Below are positions 10,396 to 19,253 of a stretch of DNA of 59,530 nucleotides, piece after piece; the stretch's first letter is position 1, and each line of letters starts with the position of its first letter. This DNA comes from Methanospirillum sp. (GTDB lineage: Archaea > Halobacteriota > Methanomicrobia > Methanomicrobiales > Methanospirillaceae): assembly GCA_012728895.1 (NCBI GenBank), contig JAAYEG010000080.1:1-59530 (forward strand). The letters run 5' to 3'. Under the pieces are notes generated by a model, which did no database searches, had not been told where the DNA came from, and saw only the letters and a list, made by a program, of their open reading frames with translations. The translations under genes were made by a program, and so were the position numbers.

Positions 10396-12546
10396 TCACC
10401 CGAACTGGTGGAGAGACGCCTGCCGCGCGCCTCCCCCGGGGGGCTCGGGCCCCGTCCCGTTTCCGCCGTTCTCGAGGTGGTCGAAGACCTGGTCCGCGAT
10501 CCCGCGCCCGAGGATCCGCCCCACCTCCTCGCGACCCGCGGCCCGGAGCGACTCCGGGTCGGTGATCCCGTTCGTGAAAAGCCGTCGCGCCCTCACCCGG
10601 CCGATCCCCCGGAGTCGGATGAGCGGCAGGAGCTCCCGACGGACCCCGTGGGCTACGCAGAGCTCGAGTTCGGAGACTGGCCGCTCGAACTCGGGCCGGA
10701 ACATGCTGGCCAGGCGCGTGGCCGCGTGGACCAGCCAGGCGATGTTCGTGACCGCCGAGTGGATGTCCCCCGGCGCCACCTCGTAGCGCTCGCAGATCAT
10801 CTCCTCCGTGGCCTCGCCCGCGTAGTCGGCGAGCAGGAGCGCGGTCTTCAGGGCCCGGTAGAAGGCCTCCTGCGAGTCCCAGGGGAAATCCATCCAGAGC
10901 TCCTCCTCGCGCTCGTAGGCGAAGCGGCTGAGTCCCTCCATGTCCCGGGACTTCAAGAAGAGGGCCGGCATGTCCGGGGTGGCCGAGAGGACCTGGAGCA
11001 GGCCCATGTCGGTGTAGTCCCCGGCCTCCAGGAGCGCGTGGACCACCAGCTCCGCGGTCACCGGGTCGACGTAGAGGCGCGAGACGAGCGCGCCGTACTC
11101 GGTCGCCTCGTACCGCCCCGAGAGGTCGGAGATCATCTCGGCGTCGAGGAGAAAGAGAAGAGCGGCCCGTATCGCCTCATCGATGGCCCCCGTCTCCCGG
11201 TGGGTGTGACCGTAGAAGGTGGTGGCCATGAACGAGGCGAGGTCCTCCTCGGTCCGGGCGAACCGGGTCGCGATCAGCGAGAGGACGTGCGTGCAGAGCA
11301 CGCCGGGGTCGCCGCAGTGCGAGGCGATCGGCTCGGGGGCGGCGTCGATATAGCGTTCGAAGAGCTCGTCGACCGCTTCCTCGGACTTCGCGATCAGGAC
11401 CGCCTCGCCGTACGGGTCGAGGTGGGGCCGGCCCGCCCTCCCGGCCATCTGGTGATACTCCTGGACCGGGATCGGGACCATCCCCTGCCCGCCGGAGAAC
11501 CGGAAGCAGTCGCGGACCACCACCCGCCGCGCCGGGAGGTTCAGGCCCGCGGCGAGCGTGGGTGTCGAGGCGATGCACCGGATGGCCCCGCTCCGGAACC
11601 CCTCCTCGACCAGGGCGCGGTACTCCCGCCTGAGCCCGGCGTGGTGGAACGCGGCCCCGCGGGCCACGCAGGCGGACAGTGTCCGGTCGAGCTCGGTCGT
11701 AGCCAGGTCCTGTATCCGGCCGGCGTAACCGGCGAGCGCCGGCTCGGTCGACCGGATCGCCGACGCAGCCCTCTTCGCGAAGCCCTCGGCGTTCCGGCGC
11801 GAGTTGACGAAGACCAGGCACTGCCCCCCCTCTGCGATCGTATCCAGGCAGAGGTTCAGGTCGTCGGACTTCGAGGCCGTCGCGTCGAGCTCCCGGCAGC
11901 CGTCGTGGAACCGGATCGTGCCCCGGTGGTAGACCCCCTGCCTCAGCCGCACCGGTCTCCAGTCCGAGGCGACGAGGTTCGCCCCGAGCCAGGAGGCCAG
12001 TTCGGCGGGGTTCCCGATCGTCGCCGAGAGACCGATCACCTGGAGCGAGGGGTTGAGCCGGCGGAGCTTCGCGATGACGAGCTCGAGGGTAGCCCCCCGG
12101 TCCGCCGACCCCACCAGGTGGATCTCGTCGACGACGAGCAGGCTCACCCCGGACAGCCAGGGGCTCCGGTTTCGAAGGAGCGAGTCGACCTTCTCGGAGG
12201 TCGCCACCACGATCTCGTTCCTGCCGAGGTAGTCGTCGCGCCGGTCGAAGTCGCCGGTGGCGATCCCGACACGGGCCCCCTCCGAGAACTCGGCGTACTT
12301 CTCGGCCGCGAGGGCCCTGAGCGGCACGATGTAGAGGCACTTCCCTCCGCCGGCGATCGCCGCGTGCATGGCGAGCTCGGCTACGAGGGTCTTGCCCGAT
12401 GCGGTCGGGATCGCGACGAGCAGGTTCTCTCCATCGAGCAGCCCATGCTCGACGCAGGCCGCCTGGGGCGGGTAGAGCTCGGTGATCCCCGCCGCCGCGT
12501 ACCGTTCGACCAGGGGGGCCGGCACCGGCAGGTCCGCGAGTCTCAC
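10396..12546 (-). CDS. hel308: Hel308 (Hjm) DNA helicase
   Basis: A 716-residue superfamily 2 ATP-dependent 3'-5' helicase acting on stalled forks. Walker A is IPTASGKT (Lys52), the DEIH box is VVDEIHLV (140-143), motif III is GLSATIGN, and motif VI is QMAGRAGR. It continues through the winged helix, ratchet and C-terminal HhH-like domain (LIRLRGIGRVRARRLFTNG). Length is typical. Two ORB-like boxes lie just upstream. It is followed by cgi121. Confidence 0.96.
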   Translation of the reverse strand: MRLADLPVPAPLVERYAAAGITELYPPQAACVEHGLLDGENLLVAIPTASGKTLVAELAMHAAIAGGGKCLYIVPLRALAAEKYAEFSEGARVGIATGDFDRRDDYLGRNEIVVATSEKVDSLLRNRSPWLSGVSLLVVDEIHLVGSADRGATLELVIAKLRRLNPSLQVIGLSATIGNPAELASWLGANLVASDWRPVRLRQGVYHRGTIRFHDGCRELDATASKSDDLNLCLDTIAEGGQCLVFVNSRRNAEGFAKRAASAIRSTEPALAGYAGRIQDLATTELDRTLSACVARGAAFHHAGLRREYRALVEEGFRSGAIRCIASTPTLAAGLNLPARRVVVRDCFRFSGGQGMVPIPVQEYHQMAGRAGRPHLDPYGEAVLIAKSEEAVDELFERYIDAAPEPIASHCGDPGVLCTHVLSLIATRFARTEEDLASFMATTFYGHTHRETGAIDEAIRAALLFLLDAEMISDLSGRYEATEYGALVSRLYVDPVTAELVVHALLEAGDYTDMGLLQVLSATPDMPALFLKSRDMEGLSRFAYEREEELWMDFPWDSQEAFYRALKTALLLADYAGEATEEMICERYEVAPGDIHSAVTNIAWLVHAATRLASMFRPEFERPVSELELCVAHGVRRELLPLIRLRGIGRVRARRLFTNGITDPESLRAAGREEVGRILGRGIADQVFDHLENGGNGTGPEPPGGGARQASLHQFG

Positions 12547-12664
12547 GCCACCCCCTTTGTCTCGCGTGGAAATGCGGCGTTTCGCCGTCTTTTTTCGTGA
12601 ACGAAAGTGAATACCACGCCCCTCTCTCCAGTGGAAACCGTCCCCGGCACGCCCCGCTGCCCGC
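12547..12664 (-). repeat. two ORB-like boxes and a palindrome upstream of hel308
   Basis: This short gap holds two boxes in the same orientation. On the minus strand, 12619-12642 contains GGTTTCCACTGGAGAGAGGG and 12550-12574 contains TTTCCACGCGAGACAAAGGG. Both keep the TTTCCAC start and the G-string of the ORBs at 8.4-9.2 kb. Between them lies the near-perfect palindrome TTTCGTGAACGAAA (about 12592-12605). They may be weak Orc1 sites, either regulatory or origin-associated. Confidence 0.6.
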
Positions 12665-13204
12665 TCAGTAGTAATAGCTGATCATGTCGGCCTTCGCCTC
12701 TTTTCGCTTCCGGTCCAGGTACGCGAAGACCGACTCGTGCGGCACGCCGCGCAGCAGCATCTCGATCGCGGCGCGGGCGTCCTTCACCTGCTCGGGCAGG
12801 CCGATGACGGCGACTGTCTTGCCCTGGATCGAGAGGCGCGTCCCTGTCATGTGCTCGATCTGCTCGCGGGCCCGCCCGTCCCGGCCGATGATCCGGCCCC
12901 GGATCCGGTCGAGCTGGCGCGGAGTGTCCGCGTGCCCCGAGAGGTCGAGCTGCTCGAAGACGAGGTCCTCGTCCTCGAGGAGGATCAGGGCGTTCTCGGG
13001 CGAGAACCCGCGCCCGATCGCCTGGACCACCGAGCCCGCCAGGAGCGCGCCCACCGCGTCCTCGCCCTCGATCGTGACGAGCCCCTCCTCCGAATCGATC
13101 GTGATGACGGACCTGGTCCGCTCCTCGATCGCCCGCTTGGTCTCTCCACCCTTCCCGATCAGAACCCCGATACGGGTTCCCCCAATCTTGAACTCCTGCT
13201 GCAT
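12665..13204 (-). CDS. KH-domain RNA-binding protein (archaeal Dim2-like)
   Basis: A 179-residue protein with two KH domains. The first has the GXXG loop in IGVLIGKGGETKRAIE (about residues 11-26) and the second in RIIGRDGRAREQIE. This is the archaeal Dim2/Pno1-like arrangement that binds the 3' region of 16S rRNA during small-subunit maturation. ATG at 13204 places the KH domain at the usual position; it begins 7 bases after the rio1 stop. Linkage to rio1, another late 40S/30S maturation factor, supports the assignment. Confidence 0.92.
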   Translation of the reverse strand: MQQEFKIGGTRIGVLIGKGGETKRAIEERTRSVITIDSEEGLVTIEGEDAVGALLAGSVVQAIGRGFSPENALILLEDEDLVFEQLDLSGHADTPRQLDRIRGRIIGRDGRAREQIEHMTGTRLSIQGKTVAVIGLPEQVKDARAAIEMLLRGVPHESVFAYLDRKRKEAKADMISYYY

Positions 13205-13211
13205 GTTCCTC

Positions 13212-14006
13212 CTACTGCTCCCGCCTGGCCGCGAGGACCGCCTCGAGAGGTATCCCGGTCGTCTCGGAGAAGACCTCGACATCGGGCCTGACCTCGCAGC
13301 GCCCCTCGAAGTACCGGTTTACGTTCCGGATGTCGCGCATCAGGAACGAGAGGGCCTGCGGGTGGTCCGGGGTCACGGACTGGCCCATATCGATGACATA
13401 CTCTTGGTCCCCGACGAGAATATTAAATTCGCTGAGATCCGCGTGGACCAGCCTCGCCTCCCGGTAAAGCCGCCGGATGAAGGCGATCACGCGCCCGTAG
13501 GTCGCCGCGGGGTCCAGGGGGGGGTCGTCCTTCAGTCGGGGGAACGGTCGCCCGTCCCTGCCCAGGAACTCCAGCAGGAGGATGTTGCGGTCGAACGCGA
13601 ACGGCTCCGGGACGGGAAGGTCCGCGTCGTGGGCCCGTTTCAGGTTCGCGAACTCTTTCCGGGTCCAGGTGAAGATCACCTCCTTCCGGGTCTTTCGAAC
13701 CGAGGCGAAGCGCCGGTCGCCGACCAGGTAGGAGGACATGGTGTTGAAGTTCGCGGTCTGGATCCGGTAGATCTTGACCGCGACGTCGCGTCCGGCGGCC
13801 TCCGCGAGGTAGACGTTCGCCTCCTTCCCCGTGGAGATCGCCCCCCCGATCGCCGAGAGCCGCTTCCGGTGGACGAGCCGGTAGAGGGCCAGGAGCGTCA
13901 CCTCGTCGAAGACGTCGTCGCGGACCTTGAAGGCGTCGGCGTCCTTCACCCGGACGCCGTGCGCCTCGAGCTCGCGGTCGAACTGGTCCTCGTCTGCGCG
14001 GGCCAT
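13212..14006 (-). CDS. rio1: Rio1-type serine protein kinase
   Basis: A 264-residue atypical kinase/ATPase of the RIO family. The nucleotide loop is ISTGKEANVYLA, the catalytic loop is LVHADLSEFNIL and the metal-binding motif is YVIDMGQ. Family members act in maturation of the small ribosomal subunit, and the neighbouring Dim2-like KH gene is the expected partner. ATG at 14006 was chosen, with GAGTGA about 5 bases upstream; a GTG at 14015 overlapping the tyrS stop (GTGA) is an alternative. The RIO1 rather than RIO2 assignment rests on STGKEA and the lack of an N-terminal winged helix. Confidence 0.93.
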   Translation of the reverse strand: MARADEDQFDRELEAHGVRVKDADAFKVRDDVFDEVTLLALYRLVHRKRLSAIGGAISTGKEANVYLAEAAGRDVAVKIYRIQTANFNTMSSYLVGDRRFASVRKTRKEVIFTWTRKEFANLKRAHDADLPVPEPFAFDRNILLLEFLGRDGRPFPRLKDDPPLDPAATYGRVIAFIRRLYREARLVHADLSEFNILVGDQEYVIDMGQSVTPDHPQALSFLMRDIRNVNRYFEGRCEVRPDVEVFSETTGIPLEAVLAARREQ

Positions 14007-14011
14007 GCCGT

Positions 14012-14953
14012 TCACTCGAGGTACTCGCGGACCGGCCGGAGGAGGTCGACCATCGCTTCGCCCGTGGCCTTCTTCAGGTCTGCCGGGTGGACCTCGCCGT
14101 TCGCGTAGGCCGACTCGAGCGCCGCGTAGGAGTCGAAAGTCCGGTCGCCGCCGAACTTCCCGGGGCGCCGGATCTCCAGGGCGCCCTGCCGCGGGAAGAC
14201 GTGGTACTGCAGCACCTGGAGAACCGGGTTCTCCTCGGTGCCCGGGGGGCAGAAGGCCTTCTGCAGTTTCTTCTGGATCGCCTCCTCGCCGTCGGCGACC
14301 GAGACGTAGTTGCCGGCCGACGACGACATCTTCTTCCCGTCGAGCCCGTTCAGGATCGGGGTGTGGAGGCAGACGGGGGCGCGGCACCCGAGCTCGGGAA
14401 GGTGCTCGCGGGCGAGCATGTGGATCTTCCGCTGGTCGATCCCGCCGACGGCCGCGTCCACCCCCAGGGCCATGATGTCGACCATCTGCATGAGTGGGTA
14501 GACCATCTGCGAGACGGTCGGCGCGTCCATTGCCCGCCCCACCTCGTCCATCGAGCGGCGGGCCCGGGCGAGCGTGACCGACTGGGAGGCCTGGAGAACG
14601 GGGACGATGTAGTCGCGCTCGAGCTGGAGCTCAGTCCCGAGCACGTACTCGACGTCCGTGAGCCCGAGCCCCTCGAAACAGCGCCGGTTATACTCGGCGA
14701 GTTCCCGCACCTCGTCCATTGTACCCTTCCGGTTCAGGAAGGCGTGCAGGTCGGCGAGCAGGACGACCACCTCGAACCCGGCATCTTTGAGGTCGAGCAG
14801 CTTGTTCACGGTCACCATGTGCCCCAGGTGGACCTCGCCCGACGGCTCGTAGCCGGCGTAGACCCTCTTTCTCGAAGCCCCGAGGAGTCCGCGGAGCTCC
14901 TCGTCGGTCACGACCTCGACCGTGTTCCGGGTCGCGAGGGTGTACGCATCCAT
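14012..14953 (-). CDS. tyrS: tyrosyl-tRNA synthetase
   Basis: A 313-residue class I synthetase that charges tRNA-Tyr. The HIGH-like motif is in YEPSGEVHLGHM (about residues 34-45), and the KMSKS-like motif is KMSSSAGN. The length of about 310 residues, without an S4 domain, is typical of archaeal TyrRS. It heads the tyrS-rio1-KH gene string with gaps of under 10 bases. Confidence 0.95.
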   Translation of the reverse strand: MDAYTLATRNTVEVVTDEELRGLLGASRKRVYAGYEPSGEVHLGHMVTVNKLLDLKDAGFEVVVLLADLHAFLNRKGTMDEVRELAEYNRRCFEGLGLTDVEYVLGTELQLERDYIVPVLQASQSVTLARARRSMDEVGRAMDAPTVSQMVYPLMQMVDIMALGVDAAVGGIDQRKIHMLAREHLPELGCRAPVCLHTPILNGLDGKKMSSSAGNYVSVADGEEAIQKKLQKAFCPPGTEENPVLQVLQYHVFPRQGALEIRRPGKFGGDRTFDSYAALESAYANGEVHPADLKKATGEAMVDLLRPVREYLE

Positions 14954-16472: not shown

Positions 16473-17345
16473 CTACTCTCTCCTCGTGATCTCCCGCACA
16501 ACGGTATCCCGTCCGATCCGGTCGATCATCCGCCCGAACCGCTCCTTCGGCCGGCCATTCTCCCGGTAGTACGCGAAGGCCCTCCCGACGAGCCAGTAGA
16601 GCTCCTCCGTCGACTCGATCAGCCCGTCGATCCGGTCGGCGAGGCGGGGCGTCTTGCCCATCGTTCCCCCGATCCAGAGCACGAATCCGCGCCGGGCGAC
16701 CGTCCAGGCCTCCCGGGGACAGCCGGAGATGCACCTGCCGCACAACAGGCAGAGGTCGGGATCGACGACGTACTCCCCGTCAATCTTCCCTATCGCGGAG
16801 ACAGGACAGGACTTCTCGCACGCCCCGCAGTCGTCGCAGTCCTCCCCGTTCCAGGCGGGAACGACCGCCCCCATGACCCCGATGTCGTTCTCGGTCGCCT
16901 TGGCGCAGTTGTTCGGGCAGCCGGTGACGGCGATCTTGAACTTGTACGGGGCCGGCTGCGCGAAGAACTCCCGGTCCAGGCGGGCGGCGACCTCTTTCGT
17001 CTCGAAGATCCCCCGGCGGCAGGTCTCGGCGCCGGGGCAGGCCGTCACGAGCCGCACGCGGGGGCCGTCCGCGCCCATTGCCACGCCCGCGTCCTCGAGC
17101 TCCCCGACCGCCGGCTCGATCCCGGAGAGGGGCACGCAGTGGATCTCGATCCCCTGCCGCGTCGTGAGGTGGAGGCGACCCCTGCCGTACCTCTCCGCCA
17201 CCCCGGCGATCGCCCGCATCTGCGCGGAGGTGAACTCGCCACCCACGGCGTGGAGCCGCAGGGCGACGTACCCCTTCTGCTTCTGCAGGATGGTGCCGGG
17301 GGTCTTTGCCGGGGACTGGCCCGTGCCCGTCATACTCTCGGTCAT
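16473..17345 (-). CDS. sulfite/nitrite reductase-like siroheme iron-sulfur protein (Dsr-LP) with two 4Fe-4S clusters
   Basis: A 290-residue protein with a nitrite/sulfite reductase ferredoxin-like half-domain (residues 10-80) and a siroheme-[4Fe-4S] site of the form C-X5-C...C-X3-C (Cys103, Cys109, Cys143, Cys147 in CPGAETC and CPNNC). A bacterial-type ferredoxin domain follows, with two sets of four cysteines (170/173/176/180 and 199/202/205/209). This is the layout of the small dissimilatory sulfite reductase-like proteins of methanogens. Some relatives act in sulfite or nitrite reduction, but most are uncharacterised. No F420-binding domain is fused to it, unlike Fsr. Confidence 0.85.
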   Translation of the reverse strand: MTESMTGTGQSPAKTPGTILQKQKGYVALRLHAVGGEFTSAQMRAIAGVAERYGRGRLHLTTRQGIEIHCVPLSGIEPAVGELEDAGVAMGADGPRVRLVTACPGAETCRRGIFETKEVAARLDREFFAQPAPYKFKIAVTGCPNNCAKATENDIGVMGAVVPAWNGEDCDDCGACEKSCPVSAIGKIDGEYVVDPDLCLLCGRCISGCPREAWTVARRGFVLWIGGTMGKTPRLADRIDGLIESTEELYWLVGRAFAYYRENGRPKERFGRMIDRIGRDTVVREITRRE

Positions 17346-17429: not shown

Positions 17430-17924
17430 TCAGAGGTACCGTGCCTGTGCCGCGACGACCCCGGCGGAGTCCGGCGCGGCCCGGTACTCCTCAAGGGGCT
17501 CGCGGTTCAGGACCAGGAAGTGCGGGCCCCACCGGAACCGGGCCATCAGCGCCTTTGCCTGCTCTCGCTCGCCCAGGATCCAGCAGGCGGCGGCGAGCGC
17601 CTCGGCCGACGAGAGCCGGAGCGGCCTCCCGTAGTTGGTCGGGTTCGCCGCGACGAGGTACGGGAGCGCCCGGCGATGGCGCCAGCGCGCGAACCGGCCC
17701 GAGTCGAGCACCTCCCACGAGCAGTCGAGGGCCGCGAGTGCAAAGACCCGGTCCCGGTCAGCCCGGGAGAGCGCCTGTTCGGCAGTCGGGTCGAGGAGCA
17801 GGGCGGAGCGCGGCACCTGGCCCGGCCGCGCCACGATTCGGACCAGCCCGGCTCGCCCGAGCCGCACCGCCGTGCACTTCCCCGGCGCGCAGGTATCGTC
17901 GCGGTAGGCGAGCAGGGGGATCAT
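17430..17924 (-). CDS. tsr3: Tsr3-like 16S rRNA aminocarboxypropyltransferase
   Basis: A 164-residue protein of the Tsr3 (former DUF367) family, which transfers the aminocarboxypropyl group of SAM to a pseudouridine derivative in small-subunit rRNA. Diagnostic blocks are DDTCAPGKCTAVRLGRAG, LLDPTAEQALSRAD, LDCSWE and ALPYLVAANPTNYGRPLRLSS. It is divergent from the TudS-fusion gene, with only 29 bases between start codons, so it is probably leaderless. Confidence 0.92.
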   Translation of the reverse strand: MIPLLAYRDDTCAPGKCTAVRLGRAGLVRIVARPGQVPRSALLLDPTAEQALSRADRDRVFALAALDCSWEVLDSGRFARWRHRRALPYLVAANPTNYGRPLRLSSAEALAAACWILGEREQAKALMARFRWGPHFLVLNREPLEEYRAAPDSAGVVAAQARYL

Positions 17925-17953
17925 CTATACCCGTCTCGCCCCTACGCTCCATA
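17925..17953. promoter_or_regulatory. 29-base divergent promoter region with facing TATA elements
   Basis: The two start codons lie at 17924 (minus) and 17954 (plus). CTATAC at 17925-17930 is centred about 26 bases before the plus-strand ATG, and the minus-strand ATTAT at about 17951-17955 is centred about 28 bases before the minus-strand ATG. Both transcripts would then start at or next to their ATG, with each TATA element beside or inside the start of the other gene. Confidence 0.5.
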
Positions 17954-18814
17954 ATGTACGTGCTCGCCTCTCCCTGCCTGCTCGACCCCTCTCTCCGGGC
18001 CGACGGGATCACCTCGGACGCGGACCGGGGCGCCTTCGCCCGGGCGCTCGAGCGGTGCGTCGAGTCGGGGATCGAGGTGGTTCTCCTCCCCTGCCCCGAG
18101 ACGCTTCACCTCGGGACGCCCCGCCCGCCGGGTGGGCTGAGAGGAAGGCTCGACACCACGTCGTTCGGGGCGCTCCTCGACCGGCTCGAGGCCGGTGTCA
18201 GGGCGCTCGTTTCGGCGCGGGGGCCGCCCCTTGGCATCCTCGGGGTCGACTCCTCCCCCTGCTGCGGCGTGACGAGGCACTGGTTCGACCGAGAGGAGCG
18301 CCGGCCCGGGCGGGGGTGCTGGCTCGCCCGGTTCCCGGAGATCCCGGCGGTCGACGTGACGGCCTTTGCCCGGTACCGGGTCTACCTCGCGGCCCCGCTC
18401 TTCTCCGAGGCCGAACGGTGCTACAATGAGGGACTCGCGTCCGCCCTCCGCGCGCGGGCCTTCCGGGTCTTTCTCCCCCAGGAGTCGGGCGACGGCGGCG
18501 AAGCCCGGGACGGGCCGGCGCTCCGTTCGCTCTTCGACCGGCTCGTCGCCGAGCTGGACGCCTCGGACCTGGTGGTCGCCGTGATCGACGGGGCGGACGC
18601 GGACTCGGGGGTCGCCTGGGAGATGGGGTATGCATACGCCCGCGGGATCCCGGTCTACGCGATCAGGACCGACTTCCGTCGGGCCGGCGACAGCGAGCGG
18701 GTGAACCTGATGCTCGAGTGCCCGTCGGCGCTCGCCGCGTCGCTCGACGAGCTGAACGCGATGCTCGGGGCGCTGCCCGAAAAAGAGGAAGACGGGTTTA
18801 CCAGCTCTCGGTGA
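17954..18814 (+). CDS. fusion of TudS/DUF523-like domain with nucleoside 2-deoxyribosyltransferase-like domain
   Basis: A 286-residue two-domain protein. Residues 1-125 resemble DUF523/TudS (thiouracil desulfidase) proteins, with the three cluster-type cysteines in SPCLLDP (Cys8), LLPCPET (Cys47) and DSSPCCG (Cys103/104). Residues 140-270 resemble nucleoside 2-deoxyribosyltransferases: YRVYLAAPLFSEAE at the start, then DSGVAWEMGYAYARGIPVYA with the catalytic-type Glu223, and NLMLE near the end. The combination suggests processing of a modified nucleobase or nucleoside. The 3' end overlaps the convergent rubrerythrin-like gene by 17 bases. Confidence 0.8.
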   Translation: MYVLASPCLLDPSLRADGITSDADRGAFARALERCVESGIEVVLLPCPETLHLGTPRPPGGLRGRLDTTSFGALLDRLEAGVRALVSARGPPLGILGVDSSPCCGVTRHWFDREERRPGRGCWLARFPEIPAVDVTAFARYRVYLAAPLFSEAERCYNEGLASALRARAFRVFLPQESGDGGEARDGPALRSLFDRLVAELDASDLVVAVIDGADADSGVAWEMGYAYARGIPVYAIRTDFRRAGDSERVNLMLECPSALAASLDELNAMLGALPEKEEDGFTSSR

Positions 18815-19253
18815 AGGCCGCGTTCACGTAGAGGTCCTCGAGCCGGGTCTTGTGCCCCCGCTCCATCGTGGCGAGGTCGGTGAAGAGCTTCTTGACCTCG
18901 GCGTCGTCGGACGCGGCCGCGAGCTGCGTGTACATCTGCATCGCCGCGAGCTCCTTCTTGATCGCGACCACGAGCCCGTCGACGGGGCTCAGGTCGGGGG
19001 TCAGGGCGGGGGTCGGGAGCGAGTCGCCGACCTTGTAGTCCTTGGTGCTGGAGAAGCCGAGCGACTTGATGTCCTTGGTCAGCAGCTTCTGCAGGTACTC
19101 GCGGTGTCCCTTCTCCTCGCCGGCGAGCTCGCCGAAGAGTTTCTTCAGGTTCTCGTCCTTGATCTTCTCGGAGAGAGTCTGGTAGAACGTGTAGGCCTCG
19201 ACCTCGTTGTTGATCGCGTCCTCGATGATCTTCCGGTATTCCTCTGGAGTCAT
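18798..19253 (-). CDS. rubrerythrin/ferritin-like diiron protein
   Basis: A 151-residue four-helix bundle with the two ExxH-type metal pairs: Glu in NNEVEAYTFY and EEKGH in the first half, Glu in IKKELAAMQMY and MERGH in the second. It has no rubredoxin-like domain. Such proteins reduce peroxide or store iron in anaerobes. A minus-strand TATA element (TTTTTTATAG, about 19297-19306) lies 45-55 bases upstream and a GGAGGT site precedes the ATG by about 12 bases. Confidence 0.88.
   Translation of the reverse strand: MTPEEYRKIIEDAINNEVEAYTFYQTLSEKIKDENLKKLFGELAGEEKGHREYLQKLLTKDIKSLGFSSTKDYKVGDSLPTPALTPDLSPVDGLVVAIKKELAAMQMYTQLAAASDDAEVKKLFTDLATMERGHKTRLEDLYVNAAFTESW

Follow-up and report, generated by a model that had tools for sequence, protein, structure and literature searches.

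Previous studies of the 2-thiouracil desulfurase TudS (DUF523, PF04463; PDB 6z92-6z96) assigned three cysteines as cluster ligands, a Glu and a Ser to catalysis, and an Arg to the phosphate of docked 4-thio-UMP (PMC10611767), and known TudS enzymes prefer 4-thio-UMP. Among TudS-family sequences, 58.9% were reported to be single-domain proteins and 40.1% fusions with DUF1722, as in RudS (TudS-DUF1722), a desulfidase that removes 4-thiouridine from tRNA (PMC11417400). Nucleoside 2-deoxyribosyltransferases (NDTs; PF05014), such as CtNDT, LlNDT and TbNDT, carry an NLM motif that reaches the active site of the neighboring subunit, and their archaeal homologue AvNRT, an N-ribosyltransferase of Archaeoglobus veneficus, was not seen to hydrolyze pyrimidine nucleosides (PMC7308715). 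The nucleotide-cleaving enzymes DNPH1 and MilB bind phosphate through Ser98/Ser97 (PMC10603095). In the literature covered, with most subscription journals outside that coverage, we found no paper joining DUF523 with a deoxyribosyltransferase and none on the TudS-related CD3072 family. The protein described here appears to be a new combination of these known enzyme kinds, and no published description of the fusion was found.

The gene was analyzed in a 59,530-nucleotide stretch of Methanospirillum DNA, referred to below as the window, where positions 17954-18814 of the forward strand form a single open reading frame of 286 residues whose start codon at 17954 (MYVL...) is kept across orthologues. 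An earlier note, made from the sequence by itself, had proposed that this gene fuses a TudS-like domain to a deoxyribosyltransferase (DRT) domain, and profile searches bore this out: the protein almost certainly consists of a TudS-related domain (residues 1-138, 17954..18367) followed by a nucleoside 2-deoxyribosyltransferase domain (residues 140-271, 18371..18766). The DRT half matched PF05014 (Nuc_deoxyrib_tr) over residues 143-253 (E 4.7e-23; 82 bits against a cut-off of 28.8) and PF15891 (Nuc_deoxyri_tr2) over residues 140-241 (E 4.5e-16), and the only other Pfam match in this half was a sub-threshold one to TIR_2. Residues 3-121 matched the NCBIfam model NF045597 (TudS_rel_CD3072) with an E of 1.3e-10 and a score of 41.2 bits, below the 130-bit equivalog cut-off. 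The narrower claim of a DUF523 domain held for the family but not for the window protein itself, since PF04463 gave no match to this protein at E<=1 but matched 33 of the 40 orthologues searched, with E values down to 2.9e-7. Judged by its sequence, the N-terminal domain of this copy has diverged too far for the Pfam DUF523/TudS model to recognize it and is better described as TudS-related than as a clear DUF523 domain. Because it scores below curated cut-offs, automatic annotation would tend to show the DRT half only. In a profile-profile comparison (hhalign), the domain matched stand-alone archaeal TudS-related proteins with 99.5% probability (E 3.6e-22). These belong to the CD3072 family of TudS-related putative desulfidases (NF045597), which occur as stand-alone proteins in many archaea of the phylum and form the closest family to the N-terminal domain; three cysteines, the Glu, Ser101 and the Arg are common to both, but the stand-alone forms retain Ser103.

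An AlphaFold2 model built from 40 orthologues (pLDDT 88, pTM 0.84) placed a strand at residues 132-134 and the next, a DRT strand, at 142-146, so the interdomain linker is predicted to be short. The structure prediction that the earlier note had suggested as a check agreed with the two-domain reading at full length but not for the isolated N-terminal domain. With the full-length model, the best Foldseek fold matches were the NDTs 7m5h and 7o62 and also CtNDT, and TudS 6z96 was recovered at E 6.4e-5 (prob 1.00), its matched residues being unreported and taken as those of the N-terminal domain. The model of residues 1-129 alone gave no TudS match by Foldseek, for which a possible reason is that cutting at 129 removes strand 132-134, the end of the domain in the full model. 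HMMER profiles of the N-terminal domain found no significant TudS match in the PDB, and the profile with stand-alone relatives added reached 6z92 at E 1.1 only. Structural support for the TudS relation thus appears good, though not clean.

We then compared the residues of 110 distinct fusion proteins, in which the key positions were invariant while identity among orthologues was roughly 50-77%. The three cluster cysteines and the DSGVAWEMGY motif that the earlier note had pointed out are both present and lie among these positions; with the profile matches and this invariance, their occurrence is well outside what chance would give. In the window protein the cysteines fall in the motifs of Cys8 (SPCLLDPSLRADG), Cys47 (LPCPET) and Cys104 (SSPCCG), and Cys8, Arg15, Cys35, Cys47, Glu49, Ser101, Pro102 and Cys104 were each found in 110/110 fusions. 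All of these except Cys35 could be mapped, by spacing and motif, to TudS Cys10, Arg17, Cys43, Glu45, Ser101, Pro102 and Cys104. Accordingly numbered after TudS (PMC10611767), Cys8 (17975..17977) is the first predicted [4Fe-4S] ligand, Arg15 (17996..17998) corresponds to the Arg17 docked to the 4-thio-UMP phosphate, Cys47-Pro-Glu49 (18092..18100) provides the second predicted ligand and the catalytic Glu, and Ser101-Pro-Cys-Cys104 (18254..18265) includes Ser101, the variable position 103 and the third predicted ligand. The likeness to TudS therefore lies in the three cysteines with the same local spacing, in the Glu45, Ser101, Pro102 and Arg17 equivalents and in the fold of the full-length model; the fusion differs from TudS in scoring under the Pfam cut-off, in being joined to a DRT domain, and in lacking two TudS residues. 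Position 103, the catalytic Ser103 in TudS, was Thr in 66 fusions, Ala in 20, Cys in 13 (as in the window protein), Val in seven and Ser in four, and the position of Tyr18, which stacks on the base in TudS, was Ala16 in 107 of the 110. Cys35 (18056-18058) is a fourth cysteine, absent from the aligned stand-alone TudS-related proteins. We consider it likely that the N-terminal domain is an active desulfidase.

The DRT half carries its DSGVAWEMGYA motif at residues 217-227, and Tyr144, Asp217, Glu223, Asn251, Leu252 and Met253 were each present in 110/110 fusions. Thus, the equivalents of NDT Tyr7, Asp82/92, Glu88/98 and NLM are invariant: Tyr144 (18383..18385; CtNDT Tyr7), the segment from Asp217, the 5'-OH-binding Asp (CtNDT Asp82), to Glu223, the nucleophile (CtNDT Glu88; 18602..18622), and the NLM motif Asn251-Leu-Met253 (18704..18712; PMC7308715). 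AvNRT has this NLM, Asp and Glu site as well but carries Phe7, linked to ribose use, where the fusions keep Tyr144. Asp217, six residues before the nucleophile, occupies the position of the phosphate-binding Ser98/Ser97 of DNPH1/MilB in all 110 fusions, as in nucleoside-type NDTs, so that the substrates of the DRT half are probably nucleosides whose 5'-OH is free. A nucleotide glycosidase of the DNPH1/MilB type, acting on (d)NMP, is disfavored by this same replacement of the phosphate-binding Ser. The DRT domain very likely has active glycosyl chemistry. In each of the two domains the catalytic site looks intact and strongly selected.

The fusions depart from the NDTs at the "gatekeeper" position, Leu197 in the window protein (18542..18544), which corresponds to CtNDT residue 62 (wild type Asp62), to LlNDT Asp72 and, by count of spacing, to DNPH1 Asp80. 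In NDTs this Asp lies close to the anomeric carbon and the 2' position of the sugar. This position was His in 55 fusions, Asn in 42, Leu in eight and Cys in four, with Asp in the single remaining one. Previous work suggested that CtNDT Asp62 clashes with a 2'-OH and showed that futile hydrolysis is higher in D62N than in the wild-type enzyme (PMC10913048), and an Asn at the gatekeeper position was proposed to admit ribonucleosides (PMC12645435). However, changing the CtNDT gatekeeper alone did not improve ribonucleoside use (PMC12645435), and LlNDT Y7F/D72N was worse (PMC11647913). Since CtNDT D62N retains about 50% efficiency, loss of the Asp does not exclude activity. The non-Asp gatekeeper may hint that the choice of sugar is less strict or that hydrolysis is increased.

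A DRT tree was computed after masking the gatekeeper column. Its 67 rows with a TudS-related partner, either fused or as a protein of the same genome, carried a non-Asp gatekeeper without exception (67/67), all 23 Asp-gatekeeper rows were without a TudS-related partner (23/23), and another six rows were non-Asp without a partner; the Asp-bearing exception above comes from the larger set of 110. For correlated evolution of gatekeeper and partner, the tree held about three trait changes and two independent pairs on well-supported branches, and no significance was obtained. We regard it as rather unlikely that the fusion is a hitherto undescribed two-step enzyme, core to this one archaeal order, that desulfurates a thiolated ribonucleoside before base cleavage or exchange, and whose DRT gave up the deoxyribose-type Asp as it acquired a TudS-like partner.

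Within the order Methanomicrobiales the fusion gene is near-core, single-copy and rarely broken. Of 135 genomes with a completeness of 90% or more, 133 gave a match, and in 131 it spanned both domains, a count that includes one genome with a broken frame (G016) and one whose match is cut at residue 86 (G357). Named carriers are Methanoregula, Methanolinea, Methanoculleus, Methanofollis, Methanocorpusculum, Methanogenium, Methanocalculus and Methanospirillum. A fusion 54% identical to that of the window was also seen on a contig (L247) filed under the bacterial candidate division WOR-3, which is probably a misbinned methanogen contig. Outside the order, in the 295 genomes sampled from the phylum, only separate proteins were seen: DRTs standing alone (about 145 residues) and, at other loci, TudS-related proteins standing alone (about 150-208 residues). 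In the family that includes Methanosarcina-like genomes (f8), both separate proteins occur together in several genera, and other genera have the DRT only. Because the fusion is near-core in one order and its parts occur separately in relatives of Methanosarcina and elsewhere, the two activities can be linked by gene fusion.

The best explanation, which we offer tentatively, may be that the protein is a bifunctional enzyme with which Methanomicrobiales process thiolated nucleosides set free by RNA turnover; that both steps act on one and the same compound, as in the one-protein pathway for a thiolated nucleoside or base proposed by the earlier note, is plausible but somewhat less likely than not. 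In the first step, Cys8, Cys47 and Cys104 would coordinate a [4Fe-4S] cluster that leaves one iron open. A thiolated pyrimidine nucleoside or nucleotide would bind there through its thiocarbonyl sulfur, and a water activated by Glu49/Ser101 would displace the sulfur, with release of sulfide. In the second, Glu223 would attack C1' of a free-5'-OH nucleoside held by Asp217 and Asn251, the base would be released, and the glycosyl-enzyme would be resolved by water or by another base. ThiI, which makes 4-thiouridine in tRNA, was found in 15/15 genomes tested, and 4-thiouridine is therefore a plausible source compound. Against the bifunctional reading stand the loss of TudS Ser103 and Tyr18, TudS-type profile scores far below curated cut-offs and the missing TudS match of the 1-129 model. 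For a single pathway speaks the near-core, rarely broken fusion; the lack of the usual Asp72-type residue in the DRT domain speaks against it. The weakest link of the bifunctional reading is that TudS enzymes favor a 5'-monophosphate, which Arg15 fits, whereas the DRT site is of the nucleoside type, together with the lack of a clear uracil phosphoribosyltransferase (Upp) in the window genome. No Upp scored over the cut-off there, so that genome has no obvious uracil salvage by the Upp route; none was clear in G003, G013, G024, G044 and G055, and the enzyme was present in G037, G170 and G235. A PNP-family nucleoside phosphorylase was found in 15/15 genomes tested and hence does not discriminate.

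The same mismatch between a phosphate-type (Arg15) and a nucleoside-type (Asp217) site would fit two independent enzymes joined for co-expression or assembly, with the DRT carrying out ordinary base exchange or hydrolysis and the TudS-like domain acting on an unrelated thiolated metabolite. In the phylum, either domain is often met as a stand-alone protein, without strict co-occurrence of the two, and each persists alone in a few Methanomicrobiales: two genomes of the order (G038, G048) keep the DRT half and lack the TudS-like domain, and another (G007; L066:5024-5764) keeps the TudS-related half beside a decayed DRT region without catalytic residues. These separate losses also speak against a single pathway, as do the separate true PF04463 (TudS/RudS-type) proteins found alongside the fusion in three carriers (G003, G013, G044); no separate true PF04463 protein was found in the window genome. 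However, the fusion is retained in 131/135 near-complete genomes and seldom broken, and both domains would work on nucleosides or nucleotides. We consider this alternative somewhat unlikely, and the tentative bifunctional reading is kept here as the preferred one.

The gene lies in an RNA-related setting, which agrees with the bifunctional reading, although adjacency need not imply shared function. Its divergent neighbor (17430..17924, reverse strand) belongs to the TSR3/DUF367 family of 16S rRNA aminocarboxypropyltransferases (PF04034, E 4.6e-41; NF002621 over cut-off) and was divergent and adjacent in 97 of the 103 loci that had room for it, with start codons a median of 31 bp apart, an unusually tight conserved divergent pair. 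The 29-bp intergenic region that they share (17925..17953) is AT-rich near -28/-27 and at -5 to -1, spots that would fit two back-to-back promoters, each abutting the start of the other gene. The gene just past TSR3 (16473-17345, reverse strand) encodes a small protein that resembles sulfite/nitrite reductases and has additional 4Fe-4S motifs, and a rubrerythrin-family gene (18798-19253, reverse strand) is convergent with the fusion, the 3' ends overlapping by 17 bp. In the window, genes for a Hel308-like helicase, a KH-domain protein (KRR1/PNO1-like) and a RIO1 kinase are clustered (10396-14387, reverse strand), an arrangement found again close to TSR3 and the fusion in several genera; in some loci, farther upstream of TSR3, there is a cluster of GAPDH, tyrosyl-tRNA synthetase, RIO1, KH-domain and Hel308-like helicase genes.

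The RNA-related neighbors TSR3, RIO1 and the KH protein would suit a protein that, like RudS, desulfurates thiolated RNA, with the second domain mainly presenting the substrate as DUF1722 does in RudS. The design of an N-terminal TudS-type domain followed by a second domain is indeed that of RudS. However, the second domain is a DRT and not DUF1722, for which the window protein gave no Pfam match, the invariance of the DRT nucleophile and pocket goes beyond what binding alone would demand, and one carrier (G044) has a separate protein of RudS-like layout (L252) alongside the fusion; we therefore find this reading improbable. Least probable of all is that the TudS-like domain has given up desulfuration and controls the DRT domain by sensing redox state or sulfide through its Fe-S cluster. 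Such a sensor would accommodate the loss of TudS Ser103 and Tyr18 and the extra invariant, fusion-specific Cys35 but would have no need of the invariant Glu49, Ser101 and Arg15. A role in defense was rejected, as PADLOC gave a weak TIR-like match only (E 0.075) and the gene is near-core and single-copy.

The fate of thiolated nucleosides after archaeal tRNA turnover is largely unstudied in the literature covered. The Methanosarcina relatives with two separate proteins offer a natural comparison for the fusion, and, if the two steps of the proposed bifunctional enzyme are linked, the protein would represent a new route of nucleoside salvage or clean-up.
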